DNA from: Saprospiraceae bacterium | Lineage (GTDB): Bacteria; Bacteroidota; Bacteroidia; Chitinophagales; Saprospiraceae | Assembly: GCA_026993525.1 (NCBI GenBank) | Contig: JALWSS010000111.1 | Coordinates: 1 to 60,201, forward strand | DNA: 60,201 nucleotides | Direction of reading: 5' to 3' | Shown here: positions 6,490-60,201 of the stretch, piece after piece | Numbering within the stretch: position 1 is the stretch's first letter | Layout: the number at the start of each line of letters is the position of its first letter | Program-made: the position numbers and the translations under genes | Notes under the pieces: model-generated | Told to the model about the DNA's origin: nothing | Seen by the model: the letters and a program-made list of their open reading frames with translations, nothing else | Databases searched by the model: none

Positions 6490-7335
6490 ATGACCGCAAA
6501 GGGGGTAGACAACAGGGAAATTACAAAGATCAGGGGCCGTGAAGTGCACCGGCTGAACGATCTTCTGGCGGTGGAAGAGCCCCTGGAAATCCGCCTCGGA
6601 ATTGCCACCCGGGGTAACGGCATCCACGAGAACGTGGCCGTGACCATGCGCACCCCCGGCCGTGATGAAGAACTGGCCGCAGGCTTTCTGTTTACCGAAG
6701 GGCTGGTAAACAGACCCGGGCAAATACTGGGCTGCGAACCGGTTGAGACCAGATGGAAAGAGGCCCGGGAGAATGTCTTGTTGGTGAAACTCCGGGAGGG
6801 CTCCGAAGGCTTACTCAAAAAAGTGAAAAGGAATTTCCTCACCACCTCGGCCTGTGGCGTTTGCGGCAAGGCCTCCATCGAGTCGGTGCAAACCAGGAGC
6901 GAGTATGATATTCCGGAAGGGAGTCCGGTTTTTGATGCCACACTGCTGCACGACTTGCCCGTACGGATCAGCGGCCACCAATCGGTATTTGACTGCACAG
7001 GTGGACTGCACGCAGCCGCAATTTTTGATGCCTCGGGCCAGTTGCAACTGCTCCGTGAGGACATTGGCCGCCACAATGCCGTTGACAAGGTGATTGGGGC
7101 CGCCTTCCTGAACGGGCAGCTTCCGCTGGCGCAGCACCTCCTTTTGGTGAGCGGCAGGGCCGGCTTTGAACTGGTACAGAAGGCCGTGATGGCGGGCATT
7201 CCGGTGATGGCAGCGGTGGGTGCCCCGTCGAGTTTGGCGGTGAAGCTGGCGGCAGAGGCGGGCATGACCCTGATCGGTTTTCTTCGCAATGGCCAGTTCA
7301 ATATCTATTGCGGAGAAGAACGGGTACAAACATGA
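6490..7335 (+). CDS. fdhD: Formate dehydrogenase accessory sulfurtransferase FdhD
   Basis: FdhD carries sulfur from a cysteine desulfurase to the molybdenum/tungsten cofactor of formate dehydrogenase in the cytoplasm. The 281-residue product has the family features: an N-terminal NREITKIRGREVHRL segment, the GF-LFTEGLV region, the active-site pair in CGVCGKAS, the HAAAIF stretch, REDIGRHNAVDK, and a C-terminal VSGRAGFELVQKA / APSSLA / GFLRN block. Starting at the ATG at 6490 gives normal family length; an in-frame ATG at 6355 lies inside a hairpin and adds 45 unlike-family residues. No formate dehydrogenase subunit is in this window, so its client must be encoded elsewhere. Confidence 0.9.
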   Translation: MTAKGVDNREITKIRGREVHRLNDLLAVEEPLEIRLGIATRGNGIHENVAVTMRTPGRDEELAAGFLFTEGLVNRPGQILGCEPVETRWKEARENVLLVKLREGSEGLLKKVKRNFLTTSACGVCGKASIESVQTRSEYDIPEGSPVFDATLLHDLPVRISGHQSVFDCTGGLHAAAIFDASGQLQLLREDIGRHNAVDKVIGAAFLNGQLPLAQHLLLVSGRAGFELVQKAVMAGIPVMAAVGAPSSLAVKLAAEAGMTLIGFLRNGQFNIYCGEERVQT

Positions 7336-7618: not shown

Positions 7619-7984
7619 ATGAAACTGAGGATCTTCGGCAACAGCATCAGGCTCCGCCTTTCACAAACGGAAGTGGAGCGCCTGCACACCACCGGCAAAG
7701 TGGAAGATTGTGTTTCCTTCGGTAAATCCGCCCTCACCTATACCCTGGAATCCTCCGGCATTTCAGAAATAACCACCTCTTTTGAAAATAACCGCCTGGT
7801 CGTTTCAGTGCCCGCAGGTGCTGCCCGTCAATGGGCCGCTTCCGATGAAATAAGCCTCAAAGCAGAAAAACCCCTCAACCCGGGCGAATCCCTCAAAATA
7901 CTCATCGAAAAGGATTTCAAATGCCTCACCCCCCGTGATGAAGATGAGTCGGACAATTTCCCGAATCCCAACAAGAGTTGTTGA
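7619..7984 (+). CDS. DUF7009 family protein
   Basis: A 121-residue cytoplasmic protein beginning KLRIFGNSIRLRLSQTEVE, the hallmark N-terminus of the DUF7009 family found in Bacteroidota. No function is known for it. The C-terminus (EKDFKCLTPRDEDESDNF) holds the Cys-containing segment usual in the family. It is followed four bases after its stop by a composite repeat array, and preceded by the THX terminator, so it needs its own promoter, which I could not pick out. Confidence 0.75.
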   Translation: MKLRIFGNSIRLRLSQTEVERLHTTGKVEDCVSFGKSALTYTLESSGISEITTSFENNRLVVSVPAGAARQWAASDEISLKAEKPLNPGESLKILIEKDFKCLTPRDEDESDNFPNPNKSC

Positions 7985-8164
7985 GGCAGTGGCTCCCCGA
8001 TGCCGATGCCGAAAGCCTTCGGCATCGGCACGGGGCAGGCTGTAGCTGGTAGCTGGTAGCTCCCCGAGGGATCGGGGCAGGCTGTAGCTCGTAGCTCCCC
8101 GAATACCCGGGGCAGGCTGTGGCTCGTAGTCAATCCTGCCAACCGATAACCGACAACCGATAAC
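7985..8164. repeat. Composite repeat, left part, interrupted by the IS3 element
   Basis: In order: a hairpin of GCCGATGCC / GGCATCGGC type inside CCCC/GGGG ends (about 7994-8035), GTAGCTGG and GTAGCTCG octamers interleaved with small CCCCGA/TCGGGG hairpins (8036-8130), a linker CAATCCTGCC, then CCGATAA/CCGACAA heptamers (8140-8164). The array continues at 9789 after the insertion sequence. The same modules in the same order occur inverted at 37.94-38.17 kb. Confidence 0.9.
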
Positions 8165-8400
8165 TGGATCGGCCCGGAAAAAGTTTAGTCGATTTGAGTT
8201 GAATGTCAACTCAACAGGAGGTTAAGATTAAGAGCGAAAGCGCTCACACGACATTGGGTTTTTTTCTTTTTTTCCGGTTGGCGTCCCCATGTGGAAAAGG
8301 TGAAGGGCAGTACTTAACCGCCCCTCCCTTTTTGAGACGCAACCGTCTAAAATCCTGCTTGTTCGCTCAAACCCAAAAGAGCCACGCAGGCAAAAGTCAT

Positions 8401-9297
8401 TCATCCATTTGGATGGTAAATTTTCACAATAGTTCTTTGACAAATTGGCACCGATTCAATCATCCGTTCATAGTCAGCTGGGGAAAGTTTGCCCAGAGAA
8501 GAATGTGAACGATAGCAATTATACGATTTTTTCAGCCATTCTTGTTGTGATTTGAGTTGCTGGATTGAGTTGACGACTATGCCATGGAGCATGTGGTTTT
8601 TCAAGATGTCATTCAACGATTCTGCATGAGAATTCTCAAAGCAACTAGTAGCCATACTTGAAACCATATTTAGTTCACCTAACAATTTCAGCAGTGGCTG
8701 ATAGATGTATTGCTTGGCCCCATCAGAATGAAAAATGCAGCCTTCCAGACTAGCGGCATCTCGTACTTCAAGGCATTGCTTCATCACCTCATAGGAGGTA
8801 TGCTCTGCTTGCATTGTTGAAGAAAAACTCAATCCCAACAAGTACCGACTGTAAAGATCCATCAAAGTGGTACAATAGCCTATTTTACGACCATTTGTGT
8901 TGGAAAACACATAAAACATATCTGTGGCAAAGGCCTGGTTAATCCCATTCAACTCTTTGCCTTTCAGGAGGTTATCAAATTGAAAGTCACCTTTTTTCGT
9001 ACACCCCTTATAGGCACGTTTGATGGGAATGATCAAGCCTTGCTCTTTGCACAATCGTTCATAACGATGTTTGCTCCAACCGTCTATACTGTCATGATAC
9101 TCAGGTTTGGAGAGAACAAAATTGTACACCTGGCGGATACCTGCACCTGGCAGATATTTCTTTCTGATGTATTTAACCAGATTAATTACCTGGGCTACAT
9201 CTGCCTGAAACTTTGGCTTGCGACCCTGCCGACACAGCCATTGGTAATAGGCCTGCTGACTTCTGTCAAGAGAAGAACATAATTGATTGATAGTCAT
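8401..9297 (-). CDS. IS3-family transposase, OrfB (DDE integrase domain)
   Basis: A 298-residue transposase catalytic subunit. An N-terminal HTH_21-like region (SSLDRSQQAYYQWLCRQG) precedes an rve-type core with the three acidic residues in ATDMFYV, HSDGAKQY and NSHAESLNDILK. The second Asp and the Glu are about 33 residues apart, close to the DD(35)E spacing of IS3. The C-terminal SHSSLGKLSPADYE motif is usual for OrfB. Its ATG overlaps the stop of orfA by 4 bp (ATGA), suggesting translational coupling; a programmed frameshift making an OrfAB fusion is the family alternative. No internal stop or frameshift is seen, so the element may be active. Confidence 0.9.
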   Translation of the reverse strand: MTINQLCSSLDRSQQAYYQWLCRQGRKPKFQADVAQVINLVKYIRKKYLPGAGIRQVYNFVLSKPEYHDSIDGWSKHRYERLCKEQGLIIPIKRAYKGCTKKGDFQFDNLLKGKELNGINQAFATDMFYVFSNTNGRKIGYCTTLMDLYSRYLLGLSFSSTMQAEHTSYEVMKQCLEVRDAASLEGCIFHSDGAKQYIYQPLLKLLGELNMVSSMATSCFENSHAESLNDILKNHMLHGIVVNSIQQLKSQQEWLKKSYNCYRSHSSLGKLSPADYERMIESVPICQRTIVKIYHPNG

Positions 9298-9719
9298 TTG
9301 CCCGGGCTTTTCTTTCTGGATTTGCTGGATGGCTTGTCTCCAAAAGTTTTTTTTAGATCCTGTTGATAGTGCTCTGCAGCTAGATCAATTATCTTATCAA
9401 GCATCATCACCTTTGCCTGAGTTTTACCGATAATTTCATAAGCCTGGGCCAGTTCTTTTTCAAGTTTCTTACGCTTTTGAAACTCACTCTTAACCTCAAT
9501 CACTTTTCGCAATGGAGGCTCATAAAATGGTGAATATTTCTTTTTCCATTTGTAAATGGCAGCTGAGCTAACCTGGTATCGCCTCGTTGCCTCAGCAACA
9601 GTTAATTCACCATTATCGATCAAATTGACAATCTCAATCCTGGCTTCTTCGCTAAAGTAGCGTTGTTCTTTGCTCCTGGATGAAGATGATTGATTCGGTG
9701 TTGATTTGGACTTTTTCAT
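9294..9719 (-). CDS. IS3-family transposase, OrfA (HTH)
   Basis: A 141-residue DNA-binding subunit of the same element. It has a Lys/Ser-rich start, a helix-turn-helix (EEARIEIVNLIDNGELTVAE ... YQVSSAAIYKWKKKY, about 25-65) and a C-terminal coiled-coil segment rich in Lys/Glu/Gln (KLEKELAQAYEIIGKTQAK), as usual for OrfA proteins. It overlaps orfB by 4 bp. Composition of both frames is more AT-rich than neighbouring genes, in keeping with a mobile origin. Confidence 0.88.
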   Translation of the reverse strand: MKKSKSTPNQSSSSRSKEQRYFSEEARIEIVNLIDNGELTVAEATRRYQVSSAAIYKWKKKYSPFYEPPLRKVIEVKSEFQKRKKLEKELAQAYEIIGKTQAKVMMLDKIIDLAAEHYQQDLKKTFGDKPSSKSRKKSPGK

Positions 9720-9788
9720 GCCCTAAAATAGTTTGTATGCCGAGTTTACTGTCAACTCGATGGACTAAACACTTTTTGGGCAGGTCCA

Positions 9789-9910
9789 AACCGACAACCG
9801 ATAACCGACAACCGATAACCGACAACCGATAACAACCTTCATAACCCTTCATCCCCGATGAAAATCGGGGTCATAATCCTCATAATCCTCATAATCCCTC
9901 ATAACCTTCC
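9789..9910. repeat. Composite repeat, right part
   Basis: Heptamers CCGACAA/CCGATAA continue from the left side of the IS element (9789-9833), then CCTTCATAACC, a hairpin CCCCGAT-gaaa-ATCGGGG (9853-9870), and nonamers CATAATCCT up to about 9904. Confidence 0.88.
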
Positions 9911-14428: not shown

Positions 14429-14562
14429 GTTTAGTCCGCCTTTCGGTGGCGTTTAGGCACCTTCGGTGCGTTTAGTCCGCCTGGCGGCGGAGTTTAGGGC
14501 CCTGCGGGCCGTTTAGTCCCCTGTCAGGCGCTGACTTTCGGTCAGCTCCTGAATTACCGGGG
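14429..14562. repeat. GTTTAG-hairpin tandem array
   Basis: Five units start with GTTTAG at 14429, 14451, 14470, 14492 and 14511, so spacing alternates 22, 19, 22, 19 bp. Each unit carries its own short hairpin with a different stem: CCGCC/GGTGG, GCACC/GGTGC, TCCGCC/GGCGGA, GGCCC/GGGCC. The fifth holds a long interrupted stem (14518-14562) with CCCC/GGGG ends and inner TCAGG..CCTGA and CTGAC..GTCAG pairs. Confidence 0.88.
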
Positions 14563-24976: not shown

Positions 24977-25480
24977 TTTTTTTGAGGAATCGAGCCCCGA
25001 CATTCGTCGGGAGAGGAATCGAAGAATCGAAGAATCGAAGAATCGAAGAATCGAGGAATCGAGGAATCGAGGAATCGAGGAATGATCAGAACTGGAAGTG
25101 TTCGTGCTTGACCCACGGGCAATCTCAGTTCCTCAGTTCCTCAATTCCTCAGTTCCTCACTTCCTCACTTCCTCACTTCCTCACTTCCTCAGTTCCTCAG
25201 TTCCTGAGTCCACTGTAAAAAGTGGTATTTCCAATTGCGACGGAAAGCTGATGAACAGTTGATTAATAATTGAATGTTTAACATTCTAAAGTTCAATCAA
25301 CGACGCATCTCAAAAACCTCAAAAACCCATTCAAAAACCTTAAAAAACATGAGTTCCTTCGAAAATGGGGGTTTTTGCAGTGCTCTCAGTTCCTCAGTTC
25401 CTCAGTTCCTCAATTCCTCAGTTCCTCAGTTCTTCAGTTCCTCAATTCCTCACTTCCTCAGTTCCTCACTTCCTCATTCC
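24977..25480. repeat. Large composite repeat: GAGGAATC octamers, then two CTCAGTTC octamer arrays
   Basis: A 504-bp gap with GAATCGAA/GAGGAATC octamers (24983-25085), then CTCAGTTC/CTCACTTC octamers (25124-25208), a non-repetitive 100 bp, AAAAACC words with a hairpin-forming pair AAAACCCATT and AATGGGGGTTTT (25314-25377), and a second CTCAGTTC array (25384-25477) that abuts the stop of the ABC exporter. The two word types are close to reverse complements in their GAGGAA/TTCCTC core. No gene is supported. Confidence 0.9.
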
Positions 25481-28224: not shown

Positions 28225-28467
28225 GGTCGTTTTTTTTGTGGTGGTTCCTGAATCAAGCGCTATCAATCACCCCTTGCCTCTCACGGAGCCCACAAAGTCC
28301 ACGGAGGCTTTTCTCTGTGTATCCAAGGGGCTCTGTTAAAGGAACTCAGACGGGATTATGGAGGATTACCCGTATCTTCTCTAAACTTTTCTAAACTTCT
28401 CTAAACCCTTGTCAACCCCTCTAAACCTCCCAAAAACCCAGCAAACAACACCTGACAAAGTGAAAGG
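28225..28467. repeat. Repeat block: CACGGAG...CTCTGTG element, GGATTATGGA word, CTAAACTTTT decamers
   Basis: Contains CTCACGGAGCCCAC..CCACGGAGG..CTCTGTG (28278-28318), matching the element at 60,016-60,060, one GGGATTATGGAGGATTA word (28353-28368), and decamers of the type TCTAAACTTT (28377-28430). No gene is seen. Confidence 0.8.
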
Positions 28468-29946: not shown

Positions 29947-30194
29947 GGCTTTCGTTTTAGGCCCGCAAAGGTAGGGAACGCGAAGGGGAAAATTTTAGGG
30001 ATGAGGGATGCCCCGTGCCATCCCGATCCCGAAAGCTTTCGGGACGGGATCGGCATCGGGGGAGGGATGAGGGATGAGGGATGAGGGATGAGGGATGAGG
30101 GATGAGGGATGAAAGCGCTAGCTCTCCCAAACCCTACACCCTACTCCCTACTCCCTACTCCCTACTCCCTACTCCCTACTCCCTACACTCCACC
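29947..30194. repeat. Composite repeat: GATCCCG hairpin, GGGATGA heptamers, CGCTAGC linker, CCCTACT heptamers
   Basis: A nested hairpin CCCCGTGCC..GATCCCG..GGGACGGGAT..GGCATCGGGG (30011-30062) leads to about eight GGGATGA heptamers (30063-30111), a linker AAAGCGCTAGCTCTCCC, and CCCTACA/CCCTACT heptamers (30130-30188) that end beside the stop of the NtrC-type gene. The same order of hairpin-or-heptamer, GCTAGCG linker and CCCTA heptamer is seen at 34.8 kb. Confidence 0.9.
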
Positions 30195-31535
30195 TCAACC
30201 ATTCAGTTTATATTCTTCGATCTTGCGGTACAGTGTAGCCAGGCCGATGCCGAGCAGTTCGGCGGAGCGGGTTTTGTTGCCGTTGGTGTAGGCCAGCACT
30301 TTTCGGATGTGGAGTTTTTCCATTTCGGCCAGTTTGAGGGCGTCGGCGGGGTCGCCGGTTTCGGTGTAGGCGAAGTCAAAGGGCAGGCAGTCGAGGGTCA
30401 GTTCGTCGTTGGTGGCGAGGATCACGGCCCTTTCGATCACGTTTTTGAGTTCCCGGATATTGCCTTTCCAGGGGTGGTTGACGAGGGCTTTGCGGAAGGC
30501 CTCATTCATGCTGAGTGGCTTTCGGTTCATGCGGGCGGTGAACATCTGGATGAAGTGATCGGCCAGTAGGGGGATGTCGTCTTTTCGTTCCGCCAGGGAA
30601 GGGAGGCGGATGCTGAACACGGAGAGGCGGTAGAAGAGGTCCAGCCGGAACTTACCGGTTTCGCTTTCGGTTTGCAGGTCCCGGTTGGTGGCGGCAATGA
30701 CCCGCACATCCACTTTGGTTTCTTTGGTTTCGCCCACTTTGAAAAAGCATCCGGTTTCCAGTACCCGCAGGAGTTTTGCCTGAAGGGCGAGGTCCATTTC
30801 ACCGATTTCATCGAGGAAGATGGTGCCGTGGTTGGCTTCTTCAAAGAGGCCTTGTTTGTCGCGGCTGGCACCGGTGAAAGAGCCCGCTTTATGGCCGAAC
30901 ATTTCGCTTTCCAGCAGTTCTTTTCCGAGGGCACTGCAGTTGATGGCGATGAAAGGTTTTTGATTGCGCTGACTTTCGTAGTGGATGGCCTGAGCAAATA
31001 CTTCTTTTCCCGTGCCGGTTTCGCCGGTGAGCAGAACGGTGGTATCCGTGGCGGCCACTTTTTTGGCCAGTTCCACCGCCTGGATCATGGGTTTCGACTT
31101 TCCGACGATCCGGTCAAAGCGGTAGCGTTCGCCCATGGCCTCTTCCAGCTCCTGCACCCTGAACTGAAGCTGGGCTTTGTCAACGGCTTTGTTCACCAGG
31201 GGAATGATTTTGTTGTTGTCATCGCCTTTGGTGATGTAGTCAAAAGCGCCGTTCTTGATGGCGGTAACGCTGTCGGGTATTGTGCCGAAGGCAGTAAGTA
31301 AAATCACCTCACTTTGGGGGCTGACTTTTTTGATCTGTGGCACCATCTCCACGCCGTTGGCATCGGGAAGTTTTACGTCGCAGATCACCGCGTGGATTTT
31401 TTCCTGTTCCAGAACTTTCAGGCCCTTCTTTCCATTTTCAGCTTCGTAAACTTCGTAGCCCTCCAGTTTGATGATCCGGCTAAGCAGGGTCCTGATGTCC
31501 CGTTCGTCGTCAATGATGAGTATGTTGGCCCGCAT
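30195..31535 (-). CDS. Sigma-54-dependent response regulator (NtrC family)
   Basis: A 446-residue transcription activator. The receiver domain (1-120) has the acidic pair in IIDDERD, the phosphoacceptor Asp in VICDVKLPD and the Lys in YITKGDD. The AAA+ domain (about 145-380) has Walker A GETGTGKE, a loop reading GSFTGA rather than GAFTGA, Walker B IFLDEIGEMD and a GIRE-like R finger region. A Fis-type HTH (NKTRSAELLGIGLATLYRK) closes the protein. It would activate sigma-54 promoters on phosphorylation. No histidine kinase lies beside it, so its partner is elsewhere. Confidence 0.92.
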   Translation of the reverse strand: MRANILIIDDERDIRTLLSRIIKLEGYEVYEAENGKKGLKVLEQEKIHAVICDVKLPDANGVEMVPQIKKVSPQSEVILLTAFGTIPDSVTAIKNGAFDYITKGDDNNKIIPLVNKAVDKAQLQFRVQELEEAMGERYRFDRIVGKSKPMIQAVELAKKVAATDTTVLLTGETGTGKEVFAQAIHYESQRNQKPFIAINCSALGKELLESEMFGHKAGSFTGASRDKQGLFEEANHGTIFLDEIGEMDLALQAKLLRVLETGCFFKVGETKETKVDVRVIAATNRDLQTESETGKFRLDLFYRLSVFSIRLPSLAERKDDIPLLADHFIQMFTARMNRKPLSMNEAFRKALVNHPWKGNIRELKNVIERAVILATNDELTLDCLPFDFAYTETGDPADALKLAEMEKLHIRKVLAYTNGNKTRSAELLGIGLATLYRKIEEYKLNG

Positions 31536-31555: not shown

Positions 31556-31912
31556 TTGGTTTTGTTTTTTTTAAACCACAGCGTTTAACAGAGTTGTTTC
31601 ACAGAGTTCCACAGAGTATGGCTCCCCGATGCCGATGCCGAATCCCGTCCCGAAATCCTTCGGGATCGGCATCGGCACGGGGCAGGATGTGGCTCGTAGC
31701 TCGTAGTAAGAGCTAGCGCCCCTAAACTCTACACCCTACACCCTACACCCTACTCCCTACTCCCTACACCCTACACCCTACTCCCTTAAACCACAGCGTT
31801 TAACGGAGTTATTTCACAGCGTTCCACAGAGTTTTTTCACGGAGCCTCACGGAGCTAGTGCCCCAAACCCTAAACTCTAAACTCTACACCCTAAACTCTA
31901 CACCCTAAACTA
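31556..31912. repeat. Composite repeat: ACCACAG elements, GATCCCG hairpin, GCTCGTAG octamers, CCCTACA heptamers
   Basis: Two copies of an AAACCACAGCGTTTAAC..CACAG(A/C)GTTCCACAGAG element (31573-31618 and 31789-31832) flank a nested hairpin (31621-31683), GCTCGTAG octamers (31688-31707), a linker AGAGCTAGCGCCCC and CCCTACA/CCCTACT heptamers (31719-31784). A second heptamer array (31864-31912, CTCTAAA and CCCTAAA) runs into the TAG stop of the next gene. Confidence 0.9.
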
Positions 31913-34702
31913 TCTTATCAAATCAATGTACCCCCTCAACACCACCGGAGACAACACATTGCCGGTGACCCTTTGTTCGATCACCTTGCAAACATAATGG
32001 TAAGTGCCGGCTGGCAGGGCTTTGCCTTTGAGGTTTTCGCCTGTCCAGTTGATATTGGGGTCATTGGTGCGGAAGACGAGCTGTCCCCAGCGGTTAAAGA
32101 TCTGCAATTCGATGCTTTCGATGAAGCAGTAGGGGTAGGGGGTGAACAGGTCGTTGAATCCATCCCCGTTCGGTGTGAAAGCGTTGGGCAGTTCGTAGTT
32201 CGGGCAGTTGTCAACACAGACGATATTGCTGAAGGCACTCTCATTGAGGAAAGTGTCCAGGGCCGTGACGGCATAGCAACCGGCGATGCCACGTTCGGGT
32301 TGGTGGTAAAAGGTTGTGTCACCGGAGTCGTCAATGTTGCCGATGAGTTCCAGCGATTGTCCTTCAGTGGCGGCGAAATAGATGTTGTAGCTGACCACGT
32401 CGTCCGTTTTTTCGCAGAGGTTCATGGGGTTGATCCATGACAAGCGGTTTTCCAGCACCTCGTTTTCCTGGCAGTTGATGTCTTCGTTGCACAGGTTGTG
32501 CACCGAAAGTTCCGGCGGGCAGGGCGGCACGTTGTCAACCGGTACGGCACAGGCCTCCTGGCTCAGGTTGACCAGTGGCGAGGGTATTTCAGGAATGCCG
32601 AAGGTGCCCTCAGCTTTTACAAAGTAGCAGTATTCCCGGCCGTTTACCAGGCCTTCGTCCAGGTAGGTAGTGTCATTGGTGGTGCTGATGGAATCCCAGG
32701 TGGCGCCATTGAAGCGATACACCACGAAGTTTTCATTGACCCAGGGCACGCTGTATGCCCAGTTGAGTTCATTGGCGTTGTCGGTGGGGGCGATGGAGAG
32801 GAAGACAGAGGAGGCAGCAGGCGCATAACCCAGTGGCGTCGTTTCCCCGTTTACGAAGAAAGCTATGTCATAGGTGTAGGCCTCATTCAGGGTATTCAAT
32901 CCTGCATCCAGGAATTCGCTCTGAGTCAATTCCCAATAGTTCTGTGCGGTAAATTCGGCGATGGTGCTGAAGTTGGTTCCGCCAATGCCGTCGGCCCTGC
33001 GAAGCTGGTATCGGTAGGGTGGCGGATTGAGCAGGGTGTCCAGGTCTTCTGCCAGTGGTTTGACCCATTTCACCAGTATCCGGCCGTCGGTGGCGCTGGT
33101 TTGCTCCACCGAGACGTTGGTGATGAGCGGCACATTGCGGCGCAGCTGCACACAAATTTCATCGCTGGGCAGGCTTTCCACCAGGTTATAGGGTTGGCCG
33201 GTTTCTGTTCGCTTCGCAAAACGGGCCAGCACGCGGTAGCAGTAGGTGCGGCCCCGTTCCACGTTGGTGTCCGTCCATTCGTGGCGGTCGCCGGTTTGGG
33301 CAGGCAATACGTTGGCCATGAAAGTGTAGCCCTTGCCATCCAGGCCGGGGGCACAGGTGTCAATGGGGAAGTTGTTGCTGCCTTCCCGTCGCCAGACTGA
33401 GAAGCCGAAGAAGTAATCGTTCTGTGTCTGTTCACAAGTGTAGGGCTTCGCCCAACTGATGGTTATCCTGTCCGATTCCGGTTCGGCCTGCATGTCTTCC
33501 GGTTGGGGCCCCACCACTTTGATCTGCACCGTTTTCAGGGTGGCCAGGCCGGTTGATCCAGGCACGTTCTGGAGGAAGAAATCGTCTTCGGCTTTGAAAA
33601 CCACGGTGTAGGGCAGGTCAGAAATGTGTTCGCAGGTTGTTTGCCACCGGAAGGTTTTCGTTACGGGTTGCTGTTCGTAGGTTGCCGAGGGGTTGCCCAG
33701 GGGGCGCCAGTTTTCCACGTCCTCAGCCGGGCTGAACTCCACGATGAAAGGAGAGCCCAGCGCCGACAGCTTGATCTGGTCACCAGCGTCGGGGTCGGTG
33801 GCAGTCACGTTGAACTGCACCAGATCACCGGCCACCACGCATATTTCGTCTATGGTTTCGATTTCCGGAGCCCTGTTTTCATCGCATTGGAAAACGAGTA
33901 TCTGCATGTCTCTGATGGTGGTATCAATGGGCACCCCGTCTCGCCATGAGATGATGATCATGGCCACGTTGTACTCACCCGGCACCTGAGGGGCTTCCCA
34001 TTTCAGGGTGCCTTTGGTGGGGTCCAGGGTCAGGCAGCAGCCGCCGTTTCCGGGTACATCCTGGGGCCAGATGTAGTTGGGCACGGGAGTTCCGGTTGCC
34101 TGCATGGGCACTATGAGTTCGTAAGTCAGCTTGTCGCCGTCGGGGTCGTGGGCGCCGGGGTTGTGGATGAAAGTTTGCCCCACACAGGCGTAGTCAATCG
34201 GTGGGTTGAGCAGCACCGGGGTATTGTTGCACCCGTCGAAGGCGCCGTTGTACAAAGTGAAAGTCGTTTGCAGGTGGAAAGGCACGTTTTCCGAGCCCGG
34301 CGGGTTTACATTGAGAATGCCGCCATTCCGGTTGGGGTCGGTCATGGAAACGGTGTATTGCCCCGGCCCCGGATAGATGTGGGTGGCAACGTAGAGGTTT
34401 TTCTTGATGTCGTTCGGAAGGGGCTCCCCTTGTGGAGCCACGCCCGGATCGGGTTGAAAGCCGTTCACACGGGCCACCCGTTCGCACACCCCGTCGCCCC
34501 AGCAGAGTGTCAGGGTATCGCGGTCAGCCGGGATGCTGCTGGTTTTGGTGTAGGTGATGATGGTACAACGGACCATGTTGCTGGAGCAGCCGTTAATCTG
34601 TTCGATGACGATCTCGCCGGCCCGGTTGTGGGTGGCAAAGGCACTGGTGGCCAGTTGCGAAGCGAGTAAAACCAGAAAAAATATTCGTAACAATGATTTC
34701 AT
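31910..34702 (-). CDS. Large surface protein with T9SS type B (gliding-associated, CHU_C) sorting domain
   Basis: A 930-residue exported protein from the ATG at 34702, which gives a clean signal peptide (MKSLLRIFFLVLLASQLATSAFA); the longer frame would bury it. The N-terminal part (ATHNRAGEIVIEQI, CWGDGVCERV) and the PKD/cadherin-like stretch (NRAPEIETIDEICVVAGD, VTATDPDAGDQI) are common in Saprospiraceae surface proteins. Two fibronectin-III-like regions follow (about 430-790). The C-terminus is a CHU_C domain (LPNAFTPNGDGFNDLF, IFNRWGQLVF, LPAGTYHYV), the type B signal for secretion and SprA-dependent surface anchoring. An adhesin or structural role is inferred. Its TAG stop lies in the CCCTAAACTA end of a heptamer array. 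Confidence 0.88.
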   Translation of the reverse strand: MKSLLRIFFLVLLASQLATSAFATHNRAGEIVIEQINGCSSNMVRCTIITYTKTSSIPADRDTLTLCWGDGVCERVARVNGFQPDPGVAPQGEPLPNDIKKNLYVATHIYPGPGQYTVSMTDPNRNGGILNVNPPGSENVPFHLQTTFTLYNGAFDGCNNTPVLLNPPIDYACVGQTFIHNPGAHDPDGDKLTYELIVPMQATGTPVPNYIWPQDVPGNGGCCLTLDPTKGTLKWEAPQVPGEYNVAMIIISWRDGVPIDTTIRDMQILVFQCDENRAPEIETIDEICVVAGDLVQFNVTATDPDAGDQIKLSALGSPFIVEFSPAEDVENWRPLGNPSATYEQQPVTKTFRWQTTCEHISDLPYTVVFKAEDDFFLQNVPGSTGLATLKTVQIKVVGPQPEDMQAEPESDRITISWAKPYTCEQTQNDYFFGFSVWRREGSNNFPIDTCAPGLDGKGYTFMANVLPAQTGDRHEWTDTNVERGRTYCYRVLARFAKRTETGQPYNLVESLPSDEICVQLRRNVPLITNVSVEQTSATDGRILVKWVKPLAEDLDTLLNPPPYRYQLRRADGIGGTNFSTIAEFTAQNYWELTQSEFLDAGLNTLNEAYTYDIAFFVNGETTPLGYAPAASSVFLSIAPTDNANELNWAYSVPWVNENFVVYRFNGATWDSISTTNDTTYLDEGLVNGREYCYFVKAEGTFGIPEIPSPLVNLSQEACAVPVDNVPPCPPELSVHNLCNEDINCQENEVLENRLSWINPMNLCEKTDDVVSYNIYFAATEGQSLELIGNIDDSGDTTFYHQPERGIAGCYAVTALDTFLNESAFSNIVCVDNCPNYELPNAFTPNGDGFNDLFTPYPYCFIESIELQIFNRWGQLVFRTNDPNINWTGENLKGKALPAGTYHYVCKVIEQRVTGNVLSPVVLRGYIDLIR

Positions 34703-35249
34703 AATTCCAAATGGTATTCGTAACGAGCGGTTTTCACCTGATAAGCAGCACAAATCTGCGCTTCCACACCCTGTTCAGGGATGAGGGATGAGGGATGAGG
34801 GATGAGGGATGAGGGATGAAAAGGGCTAGCGTTTCTAAACCCTACACTCTACACTCTAAACCCTAAACCCTAAACCCTAAACCCTAAACCCTACACTCTA
34901 AACTCTAAACTCTAAACTCTAAACCCTACACCCTACACCCTACACCCTACACCCTACACCCTACACTCTACACTCTACACTCTACACTCTACACTCTACA
35001 CCCTAAACCCTTCTCCAAAAGTAATTCTATTACCAGTAAAAAACCGGCCAATTGTCCGTTTGGTCAGGATCAAGCGCTTTTTGCCCGTGAATTTGACATC
35101 CGGCCTGAAATAATCGTTGTCCCTGGGGTGTTTTACTGGCCGGTTGGCGGAATTGACTACGTTTGTCGCTTCCAAAAGTAAACTGCCAGGTACCGGCATT
35201 GTTTCCAGAATTTCAGCCGGCAGGCTGTACAACAGAATAATTAACAGGC
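34703..35249. other. 547-bp gap with repeat array and possible promoter
   Basis: Between divergent genes. The left third holds the repeat listed separately. The right part (35013-35249) is unique sequence; TACGTTTG at 35158-35165 fits the TAnnTTTG element about 85 bp ahead of the M28 peptidase, though no TTG lies at the usual distance. A stem CCGGCCAATT (35044-35053) and complementary GGCCGGTTGG (35138-35147) could pair loosely. No gene is supported. Confidence 0.5.
34778..35012. repeat. GGGATGA heptamers, GGCTAGCG linker, long CCCTAAA/CCCTACA heptamer array
   Basis: About six GGGATGA units (34778-34819), linker AAAAGGGCTAGCGTTT, then about 25 heptamers of CCCTACA, CTCTACA, CCCTAAA and CTCTAAA (34835-35012). 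Four consecutive perfect CCCTAAA units occupy 34861-34888. Confidence 0.93.
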
Positions 35250-37936: not shown

Positions 37937-38195
37937 GATCATGACCCCGATATTCATCGGGGATGAAGGGTTATGAAGGGTTATGAGGGTTGTTATCGGT
38001 TATCGGTTGTCGGTTATCGGTTGTCGGTTATCGGTTGTCGGTTGGCAGGATTGACTACGAGCTACGAGCCACGAGCTACGAGCTACAAGCCACAGCCTGC
38101 CCCGTGCCGATGCCGATCCCGATCCCGAAGGATTTCGGGACGGGATTTGGCATCGGCATCGGGGAGCCACCCAAACGGGGCAGCTACGGCAGCGT
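37937..38195. repeat. Composite repeat, inverted copy of the 8-10 kb element
   Basis: In plus-strand order: hairpin CCCCGAT-att-ATCGGGG type (37952-37969), GAAGGGTTAT words (37968-37988), TTATCGG/TTGTCGG heptamers (37990-38044), linker GGCAGGATTG, CTACGAGC octamers (38054-38090), then a nested GCCGATCCCG hairpin ending GGCATCGGGG (38098-38163). Reading the complement gives the same modules in the same order as 7,985-9,910 without the insertion sequence. Confidence 0.92.
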
Positions 38196-38687
38196 TCATG
38201 TGAGGGATGAGTGGTTTTTGATGAGTTGCAGGGGGTTCTCCCGGTAGAGCTGCTCGTTTTCAGGGCTGTAGCCAAAGGTGGCATGGGGCAGCAATTTGTT
38301 CAGAAAACGGGAGACCATACGCAGCTTGCGTGCCGGCACAAACAGGCTGATCTCCTGGCCATTCACCAGTTTGAAGTACATTTGCCCGGTTTCCCAGAGA
38401 TAGAAGCCAAAGGGCATCACCTGGGTGCGAACGGTGTAAACCCAAACGATTCGCAAGGGATTGTTGAGCAGGGTTTGCCAGAGCGGATGGGCTTCGGCCC
38501 GGGGTTGCTTCAAGGCCCTTTTGAGCAACAGCAACCCGGCCAGCCACAGGGTCAGTGCGAGCACGGCAATCCAGGTGCCCAGGTGCCGGCACCAGATGAA
38601 CAAGGCGGCACCGGCGAGGACGGGCAACCAGGCCAGCAGCAATTGAGCGCCAGCCTCCCGCCGGATGCAACGGAGCAACAATTTCAT
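38196..38687 (-). CDS. Small membrane protein of unknown function
   Basis: A 163-residue protein from the ATG at 38687 (a longer frame opens with TTG at 38747). Two hydrophobic helices (about 17-32 and 36-54, LPVLAGAALFIW, LALTLWLAGLLLL) precede a soluble part with WQTLLNNPLRIVWVYTVRTQ, FGFYLWETGQMYFKLVNGQE and LPHATFGYSPENEQLYRENP. I do not recognise the family. The final residues HSSLT come from a CATCCCTCAC repeat word that supplies the region of the stop. Confidence 0.62.
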   Translation of the reverse strand: MKLLLRCIRREAGAQLLLAWLPVLAGAALFIWCRHLGTWIAVLALTLWLAGLLLLKRALKQPRAEAHPLWQTLLNNPLRIVWVYTVRTQVMPFGFYLWETGQMYFKLVNGQEISLFVPARKLRMVSRFLNKLLPHATFGYSPENEQLYRENPLQLIKNHSSLT

Positions 38688-38752
38688 TGCCGGATGGCGA
38701 AGCAAAGCCTGTTCGGAATGCAAAAGTTTTTGTTTTAGGAAAATCAAACAAA

Positions 38753-43434: not shown

Positions 43435-43508
<74 letters not shown>

Positions 43509-59911: not shown

Positions 59912-60201
59912 TAAAGTTAGTTGGTTGAGAGGAGTTCCCCGTGCCGTCCCGGTCCCGAAGCCGATGCCGATAGTTGTCGGCATCGGCTTTCGGGAGTCTC
60001 GGGATCAACTTTTATTGCCTCTCACGGAGACCACTGCGCCCACGGAGATTTTTCTCTGTGTTTTTGGGCGCCCAACGCTGGCAGGGTTCGGAACCACTGC
60101 CAGCGTTCGCAATCGGGGCCGCAACCGGAAGTTGCAAGCTCATTCCTCACCCCTCACCCCTCATCCCTCATCCCTCATCCCTCATCCCTCATCCCTACCC
60201 C
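59912..60201. repeat. Terminal composite repeat and possible GH32 promoter
   Basis: The complement of 59912-59919 is TAACTTTA, one base off the TAnnTTTG element, 35 bp ahead of the GH32 start. Beyond lie a GCCGATGCCGATA / TGTCGGCATCGGC hairpin with outer TCCCG..CGGGA (59946-60003), a CTCACGGAGACC..CCACGGAG..CTCTGTG element (60018-60060), a unique stretch, and CATCCCT heptamers (60143-60199) at the window end. Confidence 0.82.

Follow-up and report, generated by a model that had tools for sequence, protein, structure and literature searches.

Ordered, strand-polar strings of heptamer words and short palindromes in intergenic gaps of a Saprospiraceae genome

The stretch of 60,201 nucleotides analysed here (the window; contig JALWSS010000111.1 of the Saprospiraceae bacterium assembly GCA_026993525.1, positions 1 to 60,201) carries two composite repeats, composite 1 on the plus strand (7995-8164 and 9789-9905) and composite 2 on the minus strand (37937-38164), that present the same modules in the same order. 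They are strings of a genome-wide, strand-polar, modular repeat system in intergenic gaps, built of tandem 7-nt units (period 7 for the words that we call S, X, T and G), linkers and inserted palindromes, and we consider it probable that such strings are copied between gaps by recombination or template switching, together with slippage and palindromic insertions.

Direct reading of the sequence finds all named modules at both loci in the stated order. The gene at 7619-7984 (DUF7009) has its stop codon 10 nt ahead of composite 1, which begins with a long nested hairpin element h of 45 nt (CCCCGATGCC...GGCACGGGGCAGG, 7995-8039). Next come GTAGCTC/GTAGCTG/GTGGCTC heptamers (module S, 8042-8125) that are broken by two more, short h hairpins (CCCCGAGGGATCGGGGCAGG at 8062-8081, in the usual register after (A/G)GCT, and CCCCGAATACCCGGGGCAGG at 8097-8116), then the linker TCAATCCTGCC (module A, 8130-8140) and CCGATAA/CCGACAA heptamers (module X) in an array split into a left half at 8141-8164 and a right half at 9789-9833. 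The junction AACAACC, of which AACC opens the last segment (9834-9905), leads into TCATAACCC and TCATAATCC words (module O) around a hairpin element i (CCCCGATGAAAATCGGGG, 9853-9870) with TCAT on either side. Composite 2 lies about 30 nt beyond the end of the gene at 38196-38747 and reads, on the minus strand, from a nested hairpin h of 69 nt (38096-38164) over GTAGCTC heptamers (38055-38095), the linker TCAATCCTGCC (38044-38054) and CCGACAA/CCGATAA heptamers (37992-38043) to TCATAACCCTT words of module O (37937-37991) with hairpin i at 37945-37962.

What parts the two halves of composite 1 is an insertion sequence of the IS3 type on the minus strand (8165-9788) with TG...CA ends, AAC on both sides and transposase open reading frames (ORFs) at 9294-9719 and 8401-9297. 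The IS3 family is characterised by a DDE transposase, TG...CA ends and a duplication of 3-4 bp, and the insertion shows these features; its proteins match rve and HTH_Tnp_1 as well as NF033516, the latter with an E-value of 2.8e-38 but at 132.1 bits, where the cut-off is 160. The halves of the CCGACAA array continue in register once one AAC copy is taken out, and the element is a separate insertion within this array and no part of the composite.

With the insertion sequence omitted, local alignment of composites 1 and 2 scores 123.7, while the maxima reached by 200 mononucleotide shuffles and 200 shuffles of 7-base blocks are 13.0 and 41.2. Their 400-bp flanks are unrelated (10.9 against a shuffle maximum of 12.0 and 8.7 against 13.0, 100 shuffles each), and neither chance nor segmental duplication therefore accounts for the match. 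The composites differ in copy number, in a longer nested loop of the first hairpin of composite 2 and in two inserts of composite 1, seen as alignment gaps of 21 nt (the hairpin at 8062-8081) and 28 nt (the hairpin at 8097-8116 plus one heptamer), whose hairpins are missing from composite 2. The preliminary description of this DNA had recognised the same modules, order and linkers at both loci, a view that the alignment bears out, and had rightly argued that independent slippage would not suffice, given the shared order and the non-repetitive linkers; a segmental duplication that takes in neighbouring unique DNA, which it had named as the alternative, is not the case with flanks that score within the shuffles. 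Both composites are real, yet the extents given for them (7,985-9,910 minus the insertion sequence, and 37,937-38,195) had to be narrowed to those used here, the supposed octamers are GTAGCTC heptamers of period 7, and a single fixed composite at two loci gives way to a modular system with several string types. Allowing at most two mismatches, the linker followed by CCGA occurs at three places in the draft genome, the third being C38:1942-1958; a wider scan of genome contigs for the exact linker (17-mer) gave 39 places, near the chance expectation of about 30, none of them in an array by eye.

This system was surveyed in the draft genome (G000; 5,156,449 bp in 230 contigs, the window being contig C111) and in one congener (G004). 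The G000 sample comprises the window and 40 stretches picked for known repeats (741,250 bp or 14% of the genome, 184 clusters tokenised), and that of G004 comprises 421,176 bp with 88 clusters, 20 of its stretches having been chosen as repeat-bearing or syntenic. Genes were called by a simple coding-score method and modules by a tokeniser of regular expressions, with families set from the window and early loci, such that others may be missed. The word and linker families are S (GTAGCTC), D (GTGACNN), G (GAGGGAT), E (GAATCGAG), A (CTGCTAA or the linker TCCTGCCAA), B (a GCTAG linker), O (CATAATCC), P (CCACAGAGT), T (CCCTACA), X (CCGACAA/CTGCCAA), F (CTCAGTTC), Q (TTCAACA) and K (AAAAACCT), to which the hairpin modules h, i, j and k are added. 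They form several types of strings (such as S-A-O-P-X-O, S-B-T, G-B-T, G-A-X and E-F), and one gap can hold several strings in succession.

Some pairs of modules keep a strict order, others a loose one. On the same strand in G000, the GTAGCTC words of module S stand before the linker A in 22/22 clusters, before TCATAATCC words (O) in 22/22, before CACAGAGTT words (P) in 18/18, before CCGACAA (X) in 16/16 and before CCCTACA (T) in 9/9; P precedes X in 20/21 and G precedes T in 29/32. Looser pairs are A against P (11 to 8) and those in which P leads T by 13 to 6 and O by 16 to 7, X leads O by 23 to 9 and D leads X by 13 to 6. In G004, S stands before O in 16/16, A in 13/13, T in 11/12 and P in 11/14 clusters and G before T in 7/9, the exceptions being P before S (3/14) and T before S (1/12). 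The expectation of a module order fixed throughout the genome is borne out in this repeat-selected sample for S with A, O, P, X and T, while the other pairs are looser and G004 has exceptions. At the level of single tokens, 5' words (h, S, G) lie ahead of 3' words (X, T) in 166/196 pairs of G000 and 67/80 of G004. Modules also agree in strand, as seen in G000 for S-X (16/16), O-X (32/32), G-T (32/34), A-S (22/24) and O-S (22/23) and more weakly for A-X (23/29), A-P (19/26) and E-F (4/9).

The palindromes, ca. 18-21 nt long (h insert 21 nt, j 19 nt, i 18 nt), are placed within the words at fixed registers. Element h follows (A/G)GCT in 38 of 39 copies of G000, the remaining one following GACT, and in 24 of 25 of G004; it measures 20 nt to the end of CAGG in 29/39 and 19/25 copies, respectively. 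Element j has 43 copies in the G000 sample and one in the smaller sample of G004; 39 of the 43 take four forms, which are two sequences and their complements, and 22 lie in K, seven at the P-X junction and five in X, with one register each, while nine lie elsewhere or are variants. Element i was found 28 times in the G000 sample and twice in that of G004, and k 13 times and not at all by a strict pattern or 26 and five times by a looser one. A 4-nt direct repeat (TCAT or CCAT) flanks i in 25 of 30 copies, which is no proof of a target duplication, since CAT is part of the words around it.

At orthologous gaps, word families tend to be retained while the interiors are rebuilt. Contig C102 of G004 is collinear with the window from 86 to 59941 at 77-88% identity, and both composites are missing from it: a 106-bp spacer with TCATAATCC-type words stands in place of composite 1, and the gap of composite 2 holds 1,494 bp with TCATAATCC-type words by eye and an ORF (G004:C102:55437-56930; L143:15561-17336, minus strand) whose product hits HTTM at E 2.3e-79 and, at E 2.6e-45, the vitamin K-dependent gamma-carboxylase lumenal domain. 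A third S-type string of the window (31576-31909, plus strand), composed of CACAGAGTT-type words, a nested hairpin, GTAGCTC-type words, the linker GAGCTAGCGCC, CCCTACA heptamers, CACAGAGTT-type words again and CCCTAAA/CTCTAAA heptamers, has P S4 A P T6 at its orthologous gap; a type IX secretion system (T9SS) type B sorting domain encoded at 31910-34753 points to Bacteroidota. Across 50 orthologous gaps, each at least 40 bp long in either genome, S is found in both genomes in five, only in G000 in five and only in G004 in three, with corresponding counts of 13, four and four for O, one, 11 and zero for X, and zero, nine and zero for j. The mean Jaccard index of signed families over the 33 gaps with tokens in both genomes is 0.447 and was reached by 0/5000 shuffles (mean 0.081), though this shuffle also mixes gap orientation and so lowers the null, which is why the unsigned hypergeometric results over all 50 gaps matter more. 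By these, more sharing than expected is seen for S (P 5e-3), T (5e-4), O (1e-5), P (2e-3), K (2.5e-3), G (0.03) and F (0.04). Stretch L156 has only short array-type matches in G004, and the comparison covers the regions other than this one. At 14429-14523, the window has GTTTAG words that alternate with small G+C-rich hairpins; the orthologous gap of G004 is about 94 bp shorter, and the array is missing there.

The clearest sign of copying comes from contig C105, where one and the same string occurs, oppositely oriented, in two gaps that lie about 3 kb from each other (L163:3311-3632 and 6577-6918). The strings align over 354 bp at 87%, with long identical stretches and much of the difference made up by indels, and paired indels in both arms of one hairpin part them as a case of hairpin nesting. 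The G004 orthologue of the first gap begins with the same kind of words, and at that of the second another string, P S6 O P A O, is found; on the simplest reading, a copy of the first gap has overwritten the second in G000. In the clusters as a whole, multi-family matches (at least 90 bp, 82%) link 171 of 16,836 cluster pairs within G000, 81 of 3,828 within G004 and 64 of 16,192 between the genomes, where pairs less than 2 kb apart in one stretch are dropped from the counts and kept in the totals and the between-genome figure includes orthologous pairs. The nearest neighbour that a P module has at another locus lies in the same genome in 49 of 65 cases, against a shuffle mean of 31.8 (8/5000 label shuffles reach 49). 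Of the earlier proposal that the composite moved or was copied as a unit, copying of strings is backed by the near-duplicate on C105, while self-transposition of the composite is without support.

We therefore propose a mechanism in which heptamer words would gain and lose copies by slippage, palindromic elements of ca. 18-21 nt (h, i and j; also the longer k) would be added at fixed word registers, sometimes within one another, and whole or partial strings would pass from gap to gap via recombination, gene conversion or template switching during replication. Homology for copying would come from the words and linkers that the strings share, and such homology-guided copying would keep order and orientation and alter copy number and interior. 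Module order, strand agreement, fixed register, the unequal abundance of palindromes in the samples of the two congeners, the persistence of word families and the one near-duplicate string are observed; the molecular mechanism of copying, the direction of change and the movement of palindromes are inferred. The strings would then mainly be selfish or neutral filler that is tolerated at gene 3' ends.

Several points weigh against this reading besides the lowered null of the signed comparison. C105 is the only clear case of whole-string copying, most of the listed cross-locus matches are partial, no donor-acceptor event was polarised by a third genome, and neither excision nor insertion was ever directly observed; the order and the persistence at orthologous gaps would follow as well from an ancestral string held in common and then lost differentially. 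Token-level order is broken in 30 of 196 pairs in G000 and 13 of 80 in G004, and the sharing of X, D and E at the 50 orthologous gaps is not above expectation. Two search patterns partly predetermine both the order of h before S and the downstream side of h, and h before S was given no weight; moreover, the 40 stretches of G000 and 20 of those of G004 were preselected for repeats or synteny. Lastly, heptamer arrays as such are not peculiar to these two genomes: arrays of period 6-12 occur in nine of 12 other congeners (15 arrays in about 130 kb from few loci), including AGGGATG x4 in G012.

Specific features are distributed far more narrowly. The pattern GGGGCAGGCTGTRGCTCGTAGCT (GTAGCTC plus hairpin, at most two mismatches) has 34 occurrences in G000 and 35 in G004, and the remaining 58 of the 60 genomes searched, 12 of them congeners, lack it, so that the GTAGCTC plus hairpin part was found in one (G004) of the 13 congeners searched. 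Four GTRGCTS heptamers (at most one mismatch) are present in two of 395 genomes drawn from the phylum, G000 and G438, with G004 outside this draw; six places of G438 read by eye had no linker or hairpin modules of G000. This member of another family of the phylum (L227-L232) has GTGGCTC/GTAGCTC arrays, at least one of which starts at a stop codon, as well as GAGTAGC/GCTACTC heptamers in inverted arrangement. The word CCCTAMA was found in five of 248 genomes drawn from the order, G000 included.

The strings lie between called genes, but 17 of the 184 G000 clusters are inside called ORFs; together with 50 clusters of mixed strand and 12 at edges, these make up the 79 that were left out of the placement counts (21 of 88 in G004). 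Among 29 S strings with two called neighbours, 16 of the 19 whose upstream neighbour ends there start between -18 and +15 nt of its stop codon. In co-directional gaps, the array strand weakly follows the gene strand (G000: 45 to 23, P 0.01; G004: 21 to 12, P 0.16). Convergent gaps hold 24 of the G000 clusters and divergent ones 13; the gaps of these two kinds that measure at least 80 bp number 57 and 71, respectively. This placement could reflect function or mere tolerance, and maintenance by function, which the preliminary description had also considered, is possible. Functional RNAs or 3'-end signals such as mRNA stabilisers, terminators or processing sites, with selection keeping order and direction, would fit it and would also fit the folding of composite 2 (z -5.0 against dinucleotide shuffles), though mostly its hairpins are responsible for the latter. 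We nevertheless regard this explanation as unlikely in view of the fast turnover (of the 12 gaps with X, 11 have it in G000 only, and S is confined to one genome at eight of 13), the lack of a U-tract after the hairpins of both composites by eye and the absence of the S pattern from 12 congeners; at the gathering threshold, Rfam yielded nothing in the window but a tRNA at 43435-43508. Rho-type sites were considered and rejected, the excess of C over G on the gene strand being small (mean 0.04 and 0.10). Pairing of 5' words with 3' words in heptad phase, so as to form a long stem, might likewise impose order, and some strings do fold well: G-B-T strings reach z -7.6 (29995-30195) and z -2.5 (34770-35015), and at 25005-25215 the octamer arrays GAATCGAG (E) and CTCAGTTC (F), which are near reverse complements, fold together at z -4.4. 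Letter permutations yield one better array among 140 for CTCAGTTC, none among 70 for CTCAATTC and none among 15 for S with CCCTACA, which ranks first. The pairing of S with X, however, ranks 16/20, 44/60 and 17/60 and was rejected on these controls, and the ranks are 6/15, 7/15 and 14/30 for G-T, 15/30 for S with CTCTAAA and 17/20, 59/60 and 11/20 for D-X; we hold such a stem to be very improbable as the source of the order.

A further alternative would be one non-autonomous mobile element, akin to miniature inverted-repeat transposable elements or to doublets of repetitive extragenic palindromic (REP) sequences known as REPINs, that bears the whole composite and is moved by a transposase in trans. 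Both composites are missing from the orthologous gaps of G004, as such an element would have it, and Y1-type transposases are present with two matches in G000 and one in G004. Still, terminal inverted repeats or a target duplication of the whole composite were not seen by eye, no dedicated program having been run, the ends of the strings vary between loci (by eye), and orthologous gaps retain word families. Of the 12 congeners without the S pattern, ten have Y1 matches too (one to nine each; the other two, 89% and 78% complete, have none), and no searched word array or hairpin lies within about 1.5 kb of the Y1 copy at C142:6116, one of two in G000 (the other is C158:13322). We thus give this scenario a rather poor chance, lower than that of functional RNAs. 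A link to REP-associated tyrosine transposases (RAYTs) was dropped since no correlation with Y1 genes was seen, either across the congeners or at C142:6116, one of the two G000 copies; two single CATAANC words lie inside that gene. The few word variants and fixed linkers would suit the short template of an RNA-templated polymerase (a reverse transcriptase, telomerase-like) that writes heptamers, but RVT_1 has no candidate in G000 at an estimated completeness of 100 and one in G004, and matches occur in six congeners without the S pattern, so this is hardly credible. Independent slippage and chance can give rise to heptamer arrays alone; with non-repetitive linkers, order, strand and palindrome register all shared, this account is refuted for the composite and has practically no probability left.

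Two further observations concern the repeats of this genome more generally. Contigs end within arrays at 60139-60201 of the window, at the starts of C38 and C96 and at the ends of C99, C154 and C163, which indicates that the assembly breaks at these repeats. The window also holds CACGGAG...CACGGAG...CTCTGTG at 28282-28319 and 60023-60060, which resembles CACAGAGTT words and may be a separate repeat family.

The short tandemly repeated repetitive (STRR) sequences of cyanobacteria are heptanucleotide intergenic repeats. Similar arrays have been reported as the long simple sequence repeats (LSSRs) of Mrazek 2007, as summarised in PMC4679880, as TAACTGA repeats (MacGregor 2015, PMC4679880) and as GGGAATC and GGGGA(C/T)T repeats (PMC4692102), the last source also noting repeats between the same genes of two Xanthomonas with extensive variation in length and sequence. 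Larger assemblages of heptamer repeats in two nearly identical intergenic regions of Elizabethkingia anophelis (PMC4679880) are, going by the account given there, the closest precedent that we found. STRR and LSSR arrays share with our strings the heptamer arrays in gaps between genes, but are, as we read their descriptions, single-word arrays lacking a higher order, unlike the ca. ten word families in ordered, strand-polar strings with conserved linkers and inserted palindromes seen here. The X arrays hold CTGATAA units by eye, of which the rotation AACTGAT equals TAACTGA save for the phase. As for the palindromes, the small dispersed repeats (SDRs) of Nostoc punctiforme, attributed to Elhai et al. 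2008, are reportedly 21-27 nt long, of hairpin structure, often found in heptamer arrays and sometimes nested. Elements h, i and j, compared by description only, resemble them in being ca. 18-21 nt long, inside word arrays and nested, with the 21-nt h insert within the size said to be typical and j (19 nt) and i (18 nt) shorter; they differ in belonging to another phylum and in that each keeps a preferred register in a given word. Bearing on a recent mobility like that of SDRs are, in our case, the unequal numbers between the congener samples (j, 43 versus 1; i, 28 versus 2) and the alignment gaps against paralogues, with no dated event. PMC3116915 names SDRs and describes ordered higher-order clusters of REPs and REPINs in Pseudomonas fluorescens SBW25. 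The REP/REPIN systems with RAYTs, as far as this source portrays them, are alike in their short extragenic palindromes and differ in that our strings consist mostly of tandem words rather than palindrome doublets and no link to Y1 was found. An order grammar of multi-word strings was not found in the literature, in a search that reached few subscription papers; the ingredients are thus of known kinds, and the order grammar is without precedent found in print.

We tentatively suggest, as a possibility that we would not yet favour, that these strings represent a new class among the non-coding repeat systems, one whose polar strings, made of heptamer words and micro-palindromes in set order, pass from gap to gap by homology-directed copying with no transposase of their own, each genome having its dialect and each gap keeping its word families. 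In the sources cited above, accounts of heptamer repeats in bacteria mostly deal with a single word each, and the spread of the repeats is left unexplained. Two congeners with aligned genes allow the same gaps to be compared during rebuilding, which helps to tell slippage, palindrome insertion and string copying apart. If true, string copying without a transposase would offer a testable route by which dispersed non-coding repeats multiply and keep their order.

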